Below are positions 35,646 to 39,305 of a stretch of DNA of 39,305 nt, piece after piece. Within the stretch, counting starts at the first letter, position 1; each line of letters begins with the position of its first letter. The stretch is from positions 1-39,305 of the forward strand of contig JACQXD010000153.1 in NCBI GenBank assembly GCA_016208875.1. Reading direction: 5' to 3'. The notes beneath the pieces are model-generated. The model made no database searches, was not told where the DNA came from, and worked only from the letters and a program-made list of their open reading frames with translations. Origin of the DNA: Nitrospirota bacterium. GTDB lineage: Bacteria; Nitrospirota; Thermodesulfovibrionia; Thermodesulfovibrionales; UBA1546. The position numbers and the translations under genes are program-made.

Positions 35646-35912
35646 TCAAAACTGCCTGTTGTCTTAAGCAAAGAAGAAGTTGCAAAAATCCTCTCATCTG
35701 TTGATAATATCAAACACAAGGCGATACTGATGATTACCTACTCCGCGGGATTAAGAGTAGGCGAAGTAGTTCGATTAAAAATCGAAGACATAGACAGCAA
35801 GAGGATGCTGATTCATATCAAAGGGGCAAAAGGGAGAAAAGACAGATATACAATGCTTTCAGAAACGGCAGGAGTGATTATTATTTTTTTAAAAAAAAGA
35901 ATGATAATATGA
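35646..35912 (+). pseudogene. Tyrosine recombinase fragment
   Basis: Right after the argS stop the frame reads KLPVVLSKEEVAKILSSVDN, IKHKAILMITYSAGLRVGEV and EDIDSKRMLIHIKGAKGRKD before it dissolves into an A/T-rich tail. It matches residues about 57-127 of the recombinase at 36881-37618 closely (IKHKAILMITYS is identical) and includes the catalytic Arg and Lys. Both the N-terminal domain and the HxxR...Y half are missing. It is a relic of a related element. Confidence 0.85.
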
Positions 35913-36604: not shown

Positions 36605-36692
36605 TTCTGGCATCTCAGCCAGAATCGGGATATACGAAACAGGTTCGTCTACAACCCCAAAATTGGGGGTATATACGAACCAAGTTCGCTTA
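36605..36692. repeat. Hairpin plus direct-repeat/palindrome array before the IS element
   Basis: TTCTGGC-ATCTCA-GCCAGAA (36605-36624), then two 22-base direct repeats (36630-36651, 36671-36692), each carrying a CGAA-type inverted repeat (perfect in the second: CGAAC-CAA-GTTCG), with CCCCAA-AA-TTGGGG (36655-36668) between them. No gene is visible from 36541 to 36880. Confidence 0.75.
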
Positions 36693-36699
36693 TAAACAA

Positions 36700-36840
36700 G
36701 TTGAACAAAACCGCTGCGCGGTAGCTCTTCCAGTCTTGAAGTCATAGATACTTATTCATGCCTTGTCGTCAGGCAAGGCTCCCTACTTTAAACACTTCTC
36801 TCAATCACGATACAATTTCCTTTCTACAGCAACCTTGACA
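36700..36840 (+). repeat. 141-base direct repeat, copy 1 (left end of the IS element)
   Basis: Identical to 39165-39305. It includes the terminal hairpin and a GCCTTG-TCGTCAGG-CAAGGC hairpin (about 36760-36779), and ends 2 bases into the in-frame stretch before the recombinase. Confidence 0.95.
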
Positions 36841-36880
36841 GAGGGACTTTGCCCGTTACTTCAAGCAAGCTCCCGATCAA

Positions 36881-37618
36881 TTGGGAGAAGACAAGATCAG
36901 GGAATACCTTCATTACCTGCTTGCAGAAAAGAAGGTCTCGGATTCAACCTACAGGCAGACCTACGGCTCGCTGAAGTTCCTCTATCAGACCACAATGAAG
37001 CAGAGCGTGGTCTTTGACAAGATTCCCAAACTCAAGAATAGAGAGAAACTTCCCGTTGTTCTGGACAGGACAGAAGTCGAGGAGTTATTTTCAGTCACAA
37101 AGAACATCAAGCACAAGGCCATACTGATGATTACCTATTCTTCAGGATTAAGGCTGAGTGAGACATCCCATCTAAAGGTCCCTGACATTGACAGCAAGCG
37201 TATGATGGTCAGGATACAACAGGGCAAAGGCGGAAAAGACCGTTACAGCATACTTTCAGTGGTCGCCCTTGAGACGTTGAGACAATACTACAGGAGGTAT
37301 CGTCCCAAGGATTGGTTGTTCGAGGGGCAACACGCCGATAGACCAATATCGGAACGCACCATAGAAAAGATATTCGAGATCGCTAAGGACCGTGCAAGCA
37401 TCACAAAACCTGCTACGCTCCATACTCTAAGACACAGCTTCGCAACGCATCTGCTTGAGGCAGGGACGGACCTTCATCACATACAGGTGCTTTTGGGACA
37501 TAAATCACCCAAGACGACAACTATCTATCTGCACGTAAGCAACAGGGCGCTGTCGAGGATCACAAGCCCACTGGATTTTCCGCCGGTCATCAAAGAGACA
37601 TCCGAGCGTACCGTCTAA
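36881..37618 (+). CDS. Tyrosine recombinase of the IS91-like element
   Basis: 245 residues from a TTG. The catalytic set is complete: R91 (SSGLRLSE), K119 (GKGGKDR), H181 and R184 (HTLRHSF), H207 (LLGHKSP) and Y216 (TIYLHV). The core-binding domain is short: in frame upstream of the TTG lie RDFARYFKQAPDQ, clearly part of the family, before a stop at 36836-36838. So the N-terminus is either truncated or read through a frame change. It lies 9 bases before the transposase gene. Confidence 0.88.
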   Translation: MGEDKIREYLHYLLAEKKVSDSTYRQTYGSLKFLYQTTMKQSVVFDKIPKLKNREKLPVVLDRTEVEELFSVTKNIKHKAILMITYSSGLRLSETSHLKVPDIDSKRMMVRIQQGKGGKDRYSILSVVALETLRQYYRRYRPKDWLFEGQHADRPISERTIEKIFEIAKDRASITKPATLHTLRHSFATHLLEAGTDLHHIQVLLGHKSPKTTTIYLHVSNRALSRITSPLDFPPVIKETSERTV

Positions 37619-37627
37619 GTCCCTGCG

Positions 37628-38815
37628 ATGGTGCGGAACTGCGGCGGGGTCGAAGTCGCCGACATCTTCCGACAATACGGCCCTGAGTACAGAAAGATTC
37701 ATCCGATGCCCCGCAACCAATTGCGGGCTATGCGTGCGATCGAGGTCTGCCGGACGGCAGAACTCGGTGGACATGTGGATAAGTGCGACCACTGCGGCCA
37801 TCTGGAGATATCTTATAACTCCTGCAGGAACAGGCACTGCCCTAAATGCCAGTTCCTAAAGAAAGAGCAATGGATAGAGGCAAGGAGCGAAGACCTTCTC
37901 CCGATACAATACTTTCACATTGTATTTACCATCCCTGATGAACTCAATCCCATTGTCTTAAGAAACCAAAAGGTCATGTATAATCTTCTCTTCCGCTCGG
38001 TCTCAGAGACGCTTATCACACTCGGAAGAGATCCTAAACATCTTGGCGCACATATTGGGTTCATAGGCGTCCTTCACACATGGGGCCAGAATCTTATGGA
38101 TCATCCACATATCCACTGCATAGTGCCGGGTGGCGGACTGTCCCCTATCAGGCACAAATGGGTTTCCTGCAGAAAGAAGTTCTTTATTCATGTCAATGTC
38201 CTGCGAGAGCTGTTTAAGAAAAAGTTCCTTGCTTATCTTAAACAGAGTTATGAGGCAGGGGAGCTGGCATTTCCGGGTGCTATCACTTACCTGCAAGAGC
38301 CAAAGATATTCGAGAGATTCCGCAAACAGTTTTACTGCAAAAAATGGGTACTCTACAGCAAGCCCCCCTTCGGTGGCACTGAGGAGGTCATCCGGTATCT
38401 CGGCAGATATACTCACAGGATCGCCATCAGTAATCACCGGATTATAAACGTTGCAGACGGCAGGGTTTCATTCAGGTGGCGTGACTACGCAGACGGCAAC
38501 AAAAAAAAGATTATGACTTTAGACGCCCCGGAGTTCATCCGAAGGTTTCTTCTGCATGTCCTGCCCGACAGGTTCGTAAAGATCAGGCATTACGGCCTGT
38601 TGGGCAGCAGAAACTGTAAAAACAACCTAACCTTGTGCCGTGAACTCCTCCACGTATGCAAGGCAGAAAAGGACAACGAGTCCCGGACCGAGACATGGAA
38701 GGAATTGCGGCTTCGAACCTCACGGGTAGATATTACGAAATGTCCCGTCTGTCAAAAAGGCAGGATGCATACGACCGAGGTCTTGCAACCCGCCGGATGC
38801 AGCCGCTCCCCTTAA
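37628..38815 (+). CDS. IS91-family transposase (HUH, Y2-type)
   Basis: 395 residues. The N-terminal zinc-binding region has the Cys pairs C53/C56 and C66...C71/C74 (KCDHCGH and SCRNRHCPKC). The HUH motif is HIH (161-163) in MDHPHIHCIVPGGGL. The tyrosines Y257 and Y261 lie in RYLGRYTHRIAISNHRI, giving the Y-x3-Y pair for rolling-circle cleavage. The C-terminus has another Cys pair (CPVCQKG). It nicks single strands and moves the element by a rolling-circle route. The frame is intact. Confidence 0.93.
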   Translation: MVRNCGGVEVADIFRQYGPEYRKIHPMPRNQLRAMRAIEVCRTAELGGHVDKCDHCGHLEISYNSCRNRHCPKCQFLKKEQWIEARSEDLLPIQYFHIVFTIPDELNPIVLRNQKVMYNLLFRSVSETLITLGRDPKHLGAHIGFIGVLHTWGQNLMDHPHIHCIVPGGGLSPIRHKWVSCRKKFFIHVNVLRELFKKKFLAYLKQSYEAGELAFPGAITYLQEPKIFERFRKQFYCKKWVLYSKPPFGGTEEVIRYLGRYTHRIAISNHRIINVADGRVSFRWRDYADGNKKKIMTLDAPEFIRRFLLHVLPDRFVKIRHYGLLGSRNCKNNLTLCRELLHVCKAEKDNESRTETWKELRLRTSRVDITKCPVCQKGRMHTTEVLQPAGCSRSP

Positions 38816-39164
38816 GGTATGGTTATGAACTCAAAAAAATCCCTTTGTAAACACCCTTCCGAAAGCCATCCCGGTTTCCGTCACACTTTCCTATTGCCTA
38901 AAAGCCCTTTCTTCCTGTATATTCTATGCAAAGCAGGGGCAAGGCAATTGCTGAGATTGCCTGTGTCGGGGCAATTCCAGTCAATCAGCCGCTTTGGATC
39001 AATGAATCCGTAGCCCCATTTTACGGACAAAGACAGGAGGGATGGGATTGAAACTCCATAGGCTGTACGCAGCGGCTTCGTTCAACTTGCTTCTTTCAGA
39101 AATCTTCGCTCTCAGAAATACGCCCACATCTTCTGATCGTATGCCTTCAGAAAGAAGCTTTAAT
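38816..39164. other. Right-end non-coding part of the IS element and junction
   Basis: No gene visible. Holds a GGCAAT-TGCTGAG-ATTGCC hairpin near 38941-38960, the right terminal repeat (39067-39089), and an inverted repeat GCTTCTTTC/GAAAGAAGC (39089-39097 and 39150-39158) just before the second copy of the left end. Confidence 0.6.
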
Positions 39165-39305
39165 GTTGAACAAAACCGCTGCGCGGTAGCTCTTCCAGTC
39201 TTGAAGTCATAGATACTTATTCATGCCTTGTCGTCAGGCAAGGCTCCCTACTTTAAACACTTCTCTCAATCACGATACAATTTCCTTTCTACAGCAACCT
39301 TGACA
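39165..39305 (+). repeat. 141-base direct repeat, copy 2 (window end)
   Basis: Exact copy of 36700-36840; the window ends within or at the end of it, so the true repeat may be longer. It implies that the right side of the element runs into another left end. Confidence 0.95.

Follow-up and report, generated by a model that had tools for sequence, protein, structure and literature searches.

An IS91-family element with its own tyrosine recombinase gene and a head-to-tail join at a contig end of a Nitrospirota genome

Insertion sequences of the IS91 family are not known to produce a target duplication, and they insert next to a tetranucleotide such as GTTC or CTTG. Passages of published reports describe a circular single-stranded intermediate for IS91 (PMC5714925) and ends with secondary structure for IS91 and ISCR elements (PMC13393415). 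Others describe how the tyrosine integrase of GIsul2 mobilises an IS91-related ISCR2 unit by site-specific recombination (PMC9376610), and attC sites located at or after ISCR28 genes (PMC12772301). For the IS200/IS605 family, a guide lying just 5' of the hairpin foot sets the position of cleavage, as described in a passage of PMC6006769. The combination of a recombinase gene with an IS91-family transposase gene is itself already known from annotation. One such annotated pair is located between tet(X2) and catB on plasmid p63039 of Myroides odoratimimus (L187). Here, we analysed a 39,305-nucleotide stretch of DNA from a Nitrospirota bacterium (the window), which has a gene pair of this kind close to its right end.

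The element and its two ends

The window holds one IS91-family element, at 36700-39164, in which a tyrosine recombinase gene precedes the transposase gene (all features of the element and both copies of the repeat described below are given on the + strand). The transposase (37628-38815) contains a zinc-binding domain (Zn_Tnp_IS91) and a Y2_Tnp domain, scores 467.5 bits against the curated cut-off of 125 for the IS91 family (NCBIfam NF033538) and carries both the HUH motif (HPHIH at residue 159) and the two-tyrosine motif (YLGRY at residue 257). The recombinase frame (36839-37618) is similar to XerA and integron integrases and has neither a start codon nor an N-terminus, with homology beginning at approximately 36841. 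It is closest to the XerA_Arch and integron-integrase models and falls below both cut-offs, the truncated copy reaching 184.7 bits against the 265 required by the integron-integrase model. The recombinases of two relatives (L043, 208.2 bits; L040, 201 bits) are also below the integron-integrase cut-off and are above that of XerA_Arch.

The left end (36700-36722), which was recognised by its motif and from relatives, consists of GTTGAAC followed by an imperfectly conserved ACCGC-TGC-GCGGT hairpin. Of the 41 relatives examined, 33 have the sequence GAACNAARCCGC 5' of the transposase. The initial annotation had placed the start of the element at 36697; it is corrected here to 36700, where GTTGAAC begins, with GAAC at 36703. 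The stretch 36627-36695, immediately before the left end, contains two short repeats, GGGATATACGAAACAGGTTCGT and GGTATATACGAACCAAGTTCGC, that resemble each other and are palindrome-like. A tyrosine recombinase remnant is present directly after argS (35646-35900) and is 72% identical to the recombinase of the element over 35706-35862, the sole other match obtained when the genome was queried with the element. This remnant is what is left of an earlier element, now decayed, at this location.

On the right side, a subterminal inverted repeat (39068-39092, with GTTCAAC at 39080-39086) forms the other arm to 36694-36718. The triplet AAC at 39084-39086 was identified as the hairpin foot by comparison with relatives. 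It is followed by the right-terminal hairpin (39089-39158, with arms at 39089-39101 and 39146-39158), which is seen both in the fold and in relatives, and by the tail TTTAAT (39159-39164), the last bases of the element. The region 39060-39190 folds with a z-score of -4.42, and none of 200 shuffled sequences was as stable. A scan gave 55 loci, and a shared layout is seen 3' of the transposase, in which an inverted repeat resembling CGGCTTCGTTC is followed by a triplet, then by a hairpin, a short tail and the flank. When 48 right ends were run through a stem-finding script, a stem was returned for 39 (four of which were judged wrong) and none for the other nine. Thirty stems, compared over the nine pairs nearest to the foot, yielded 21 different arms; pairing is here given by construction, and it is the variety of the arms that is informative. 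The boundaries of the right end are supported by two Geosporobacter copies (L043 and L044; 4003-6467), because their identity runs from GAAC to beyond the hairpin despite different flanks. The complete genome of Geosporobacter ferrireducens contains three copies (L044, L043, L045), of which two are identical across 2465 bases, whereas the other has a 98% identical transposase and a shortened left part.

Because the same kind of hairpin closes the right ends of relatives and the fold in the window is stable, the 78 bases located 3' of the inner repeat belong to the element itself as its right end, which directly abuts a left end. This second left end had been described as lying 75 bases after a right terminal repeat. 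The distance essentially stands (78 bases, from the end of GTTCAAC at 39086 to the left end at 39165), but the description does not, because the repeat is subterminal, the element runs to 39164 and the right ends of relatives are also closed by a hairpin. A foreign spacer between the right repeat and the second left end was also considered and was rejected on the same grounds, that is, the hairpin type shared with the right ends of relatives. Known RNA families gave four matches, all below the gathering scores of the families concerned, and the query used for viral contigs found no relatives among them.

The exact repeat and the head-to-tail join

The segments 36700-36840 and 39165-39305 were claimed to be identical over 141 bases, and an exact repeat search bore this out. 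It is the longest exact repeat of the window's end, and a match of this extent is beyond chance. The first copy begins at the left end of the element, and the second, which contains the second left end (GTTGAAC...), ends with the contig. The window spans all of contig C75 of the genome assembly (G000, 248 contigs), so that the window end is the contig end, a point that the initial annotation had raised as a check. Contig-end overlap of constant length, the mark of an assembler's k-mer overlap, was found in this assembly. We tested the ends of 60 further contigs (61 of 248 including the window; seven were wholly masked and 11 were read to 20,000 bases only), with 97 ends tested and 14 skipped as masked. 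Exact matches elsewhere over at least 25 bases were found for 25 of the 97 ends, and several of these ends hit positions inside other contigs. The overlap was 138-142 bases in 13 of the 97 (142 and 141 once each, the latter being the window itself, 140 seven times, and 139 and 138 twice each). Therefore, the 141-base length and the stop were set by the assembler. We take G000 to be the product of k-mer assembly at a k close to 141, although this does not account for the values of 138 and 139. The point at which the window stops is biologically meaningless, whereas the point at which the repeat starts is meaningful.

At the join (39164/39165), the tail TTTAAT is followed directly by the left end GTTGAAC. 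The right and left parts of the element have no common exact word of more than 8 bases by which they could have been falsely bridged, and the join is therefore most likely real DNA, derived from either a tandem neighbour or a circle. Tandem copies, a circular form and an assembly effect had been offered as separate readings of the repeat. They are not mutually exclusive: k accounts for the length and the stop, which are indeed effects of assembly, and a tandem neighbour or circle accounts for the join, which most likely comes from DNA.

Two pattern searches, each of 395 genomes, detected joins between a right end and a left end in the window's genome and in two others (G165 and G059), in every case at a contig end. 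Because the patterns are restricted to two end types, the count of joins is a lower bound. The right end at the G165 join has no second place. In G059, the right end of a GTCCTTC-type element meets the left end of a different, GAAGAAC-type element. Because this join links two different elements, it belongs to an array, and arrays thus exist in this element group. The left end of one multicopy element in G059 is entered by seven contigs that break off after 126-127 bases, a further sign that such stops are set by assembly, and the last 126-127 bases of that element are found at contig ends, five times in full and a sixth time in part. This one element, represented in the draft genome by contig termini at the left end (at least seven) and the right end (at least six; L207-L213 and L201-L205), provides a natural set for insertion-site mapping. 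A search of G059 for empty sites by open frames gave no clear flank pair.

It is possible, although less likely than not, that the join belongs to a free circle, which would be an intermediate of transposition or excision present alongside a single chromosomal copy, and that the repeat marks the closure of the circle. Such a circle would yield the identical join sequence, and IS91 has been described in a passage of PMC5714925 with a circular single-stranded intermediate. Neither another copy nor the right chromosomal flank was found in G000, as this reading would lead one to expect. No other copy of the whole element, the left end or the transposase came up in DNA, pattern and protein searches of G000, and the right-end query gave only weak matches outside C75 (14-28 bases, E of at least 0.19). 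The chromosomal right flank of the window, or an empty site, was not found either, the left-flank gene having one weak match in 60 relatives. However, only an abundant circle would be assembled, and the G059 join of two different elements is not what a monomer circle would produce.

A second joint may be present within the contig itself. The recombinase is missing its first 20-30 residues, and the loss begins at approximately 36841, where the 141-mer ends. The distance from the left end to the transposase is 925 bases in the window, compared with 1020-1085 bases in L026, L030, L034, L039 and L040 and at least 949 bases in the other relatives examined, except for the shortened L045, L046 and L063 and the masked L074 (918 bases). 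Because the loss coincides with the end of the 141-mer, we infer that an assembly joint at 36840/36841 is a likelier cause of the missing start than a biological deletion. A true deletion in the window copy, with a genuine joint at 36840, would be in line with the frequent running of G000 contigs through shared k-mers and with the shortening of other copies at the same place (distances of 590, 316 and 432 bases in L045, L046 and L063, respectively), but it is the less likely cause given the exact base at which the loss starts. Finally, it is highly improbable that the whole join is an assembly error, by which the contig closed on itself with no DNA behind it: although k-length overlaps abound in the assembly, two other contigs overlap their own interior exactly (C212, L136, by 140 bases; C3, L086, by 122 bases) and the joint at 36840/36841 is suspicious, a k-mer assembler would need reads across a join that has no common word longer than 8 bases, the join falls exactly on the right boundary known from relatives, and the same kind of join is found in two other genomes.

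Hairpin-foot triplets, flanks and the joining enzyme

Among the 36 rows with script-found stems, and with offsets of 4-8 allowed, the foot triplet is the reverse complement of the first triplet of the right flank in 28, whereas 5,000 shuffles gave a mean of 14.7 and a maximum of 26. When the targets were read by eye, 29 of 37 were exact reverse complements (shuffled feet: mean 12.6, maximum 22 in 20,000 shuffles). Four variants of the row set gave 27 of 35 (without L066, which has a short stem), 29 of 40 (with four poor stems), 27 of 34 (without L062 and L063) and 30 of 41 (with five G059 flanks, where one of the two G059 matches is at a shifted offset). None of these values was reached by 5,000 shuffles, which overstate independence because foot triplets are inherited, yet each flank is an insertion site of its own.

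The matching pairs of foot and flank are AAC-GTT, TTC-GAA, AAT-ATT (L036 and L040) and, read by eye, TAT-ATA (L044 and L045). As for the mismatches, AAC is found with ATT in L032, L034 and L062 and, by eye, also in L176, L178 and L179; TTC is found with GCT in L027, GTA in L029, GCA in L072 and L150, and GTT in L016; and the other combinations are AAA-GTT in L037, TAT-ATT in L043 and CTT-GAG in L180. The five non-junction flanks of G059 begin with GTA, GCA, GGA, GTT and GAA, so that one of the five is exactly GAA; G-N-A would fit the TTC-class flanks of this genome better than GAA. Triplet matching is loose and follows no strict rule. It is apparently new: in open-access literature, as far as titles and the openings of abstracts go, we found no account of IS91 elements in which the foot triplet matches the target, and none of joins between different elements.

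Both ends were available for 24 loci, and both triplets were read in 23 of them, with boundaries chosen by eye. The left and right triplets are equal and match the foot in 17 of the 23 insertions. In five of the six unequal insertions, exactly one side matches the foot (the left in L034 and L027; the right in L026, L069 and L044), and in the sixth (L043) neither does. A three-base target duplication is unlikely, because the two sides differ in these six insertions. Right flanks start with GTT, ATT, GAA or ATA, and not with GTTC as a rule. Among 15 TTC-class left flanks, including seven from the multicopy G059 element, T is present at -8 in all 15, at -9 and -15 in 13 each, and T at -7 and C at -6 in 11 each. 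The 20 AAC-class flanks show hardly any left motif and some preference on the right side. A tyrosine recombinase would be expected to exchange a short core, with one outcome or the other, and to show a flank motif, and we therefore lean, from the flank sequences, towards attC-like integration by the recombinase over an IS608-like guide of the transposase.

In the latter case, which is conceivable without being our preference, the HUH transposase would set the cut by pairing of the foot with the target, and the recombinase would merely resolve multimers. Such a role would parallel the guide that sets the cleavage position from just 5' of the hairpin foot in IS200/IS605 elements (a passage of PMC6006769), and position and pairing look alike in the elements studied here. 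However, the left triplets of the G059 copies vary (GAA in three, GCA in two and GGA in two), although these copies differ at just a single site over the next 126 bases, either side may match the foot, and the TTC class has a longer left-flank motif. Furthermore, three IS1294 copies, none of which has an annotated integrase gene as its neighbour, do not show such a right end (by eye, with two of the three sharing part of their right flank).

The right flanks of L042, L049, L070 and L041 start with GTTAGGC, GTTAGCC, GTTAGGC and GTTAGTC, respectively, which we take to resemble integron attC cores. These few flanks suggest that some of the targets may be attC sites.

Overall reading and comparison with known systems

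The reading that we prefer, with a probability of roughly 0.6, combines a k-mer stop, a head-to-tail join in a tandem or circle and integration by the recombinase via an attC-like right end. The assembler would have entered the element from the chromosome and passed from its right end into another left end, to which the element would be joined head to tail in a tandem copy or a circle, and would have stopped one k-mer (approximately 141 bases) into sequence that it had already used. The recombinase would integrate the element through the folded, attC-like right end, and the targets would have a short core in common with the hairpin foot. This core also stands at the start of the element's left end, which would therefore be a target in its own right, so that head-to-tail arrays would form. 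Our confidence in the full mechanism is lowered because the matching is loose and was partly read by eye. The puzzling exact repeat in the window thus owes its length to the assembly, and the junction that it covers, in a tandem or a circle, is probably real.

Rather doubtful is the broader proposal that the element represents a widespread bacterial type, in which a rolling-circle (IS91) transposase would be combined with its own integron-integrase-like recombinase, an attC-like right end, exchange of a three-base core and head-to-tail stacking that includes different elements, since the own left end would be a valid target. If this is true, such elements could bridge the gap from IS91 elements to the attC sites of integrons, and if the recombinase does the joining, IS91 elements would be tied to integron-type recombination. 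Triplet matching and the join of different elements provide a testable rule for site choice and array formation in elements that combine IS91 with a recombinase. Pairs of integrase and IS91 genes also adjoin resistance genes on at least one plasmid.

The element shares its transposase family, including the zinc-binding and Y2 domains, with IS91, IS1294 and ISCR, but additionally has a gene for a tyrosine recombinase and, on the right, a long hairpin with its foot triplet; by eye, the three IS1294 copies have neither the gene, nor the hairpin, nor the triplet. Plasmid pairs annotated as 'site-specific integrase + IS91 family transposase' contain the same genes in the same order. They differ in that the rhizobial ends (L176 and L179) show AAC with ATT, and their annotation attaches no mechanism. 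In GIsul2, the integrase belongs to the genomic island, whereas the recombinase described here is located inside the element. As in IS608 of the IS200/IS605 family, a short sequence 5' of the hairpin foot is related to the target, but the present element has a Y2 transposase with a zinc finger, and its triplets vary on both flanks. Similarities to integrons are found in both the ends and the enzyme. The imperfect inverted repeat would close as GTTCAAC...GTTGAAC, which we liken to the boxes of integron cassettes on the basis of the attC box consensus, and the fold and boxes present at the join may represent an attC-like site. The recombinase is related to the integron integrase models, and head-to-tail stacking is likewise a common feature. 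Unlike in integrons, however, the recombinase scores below the integron-integrase cut-off, and the pairing in the element extends beyond the boxes.
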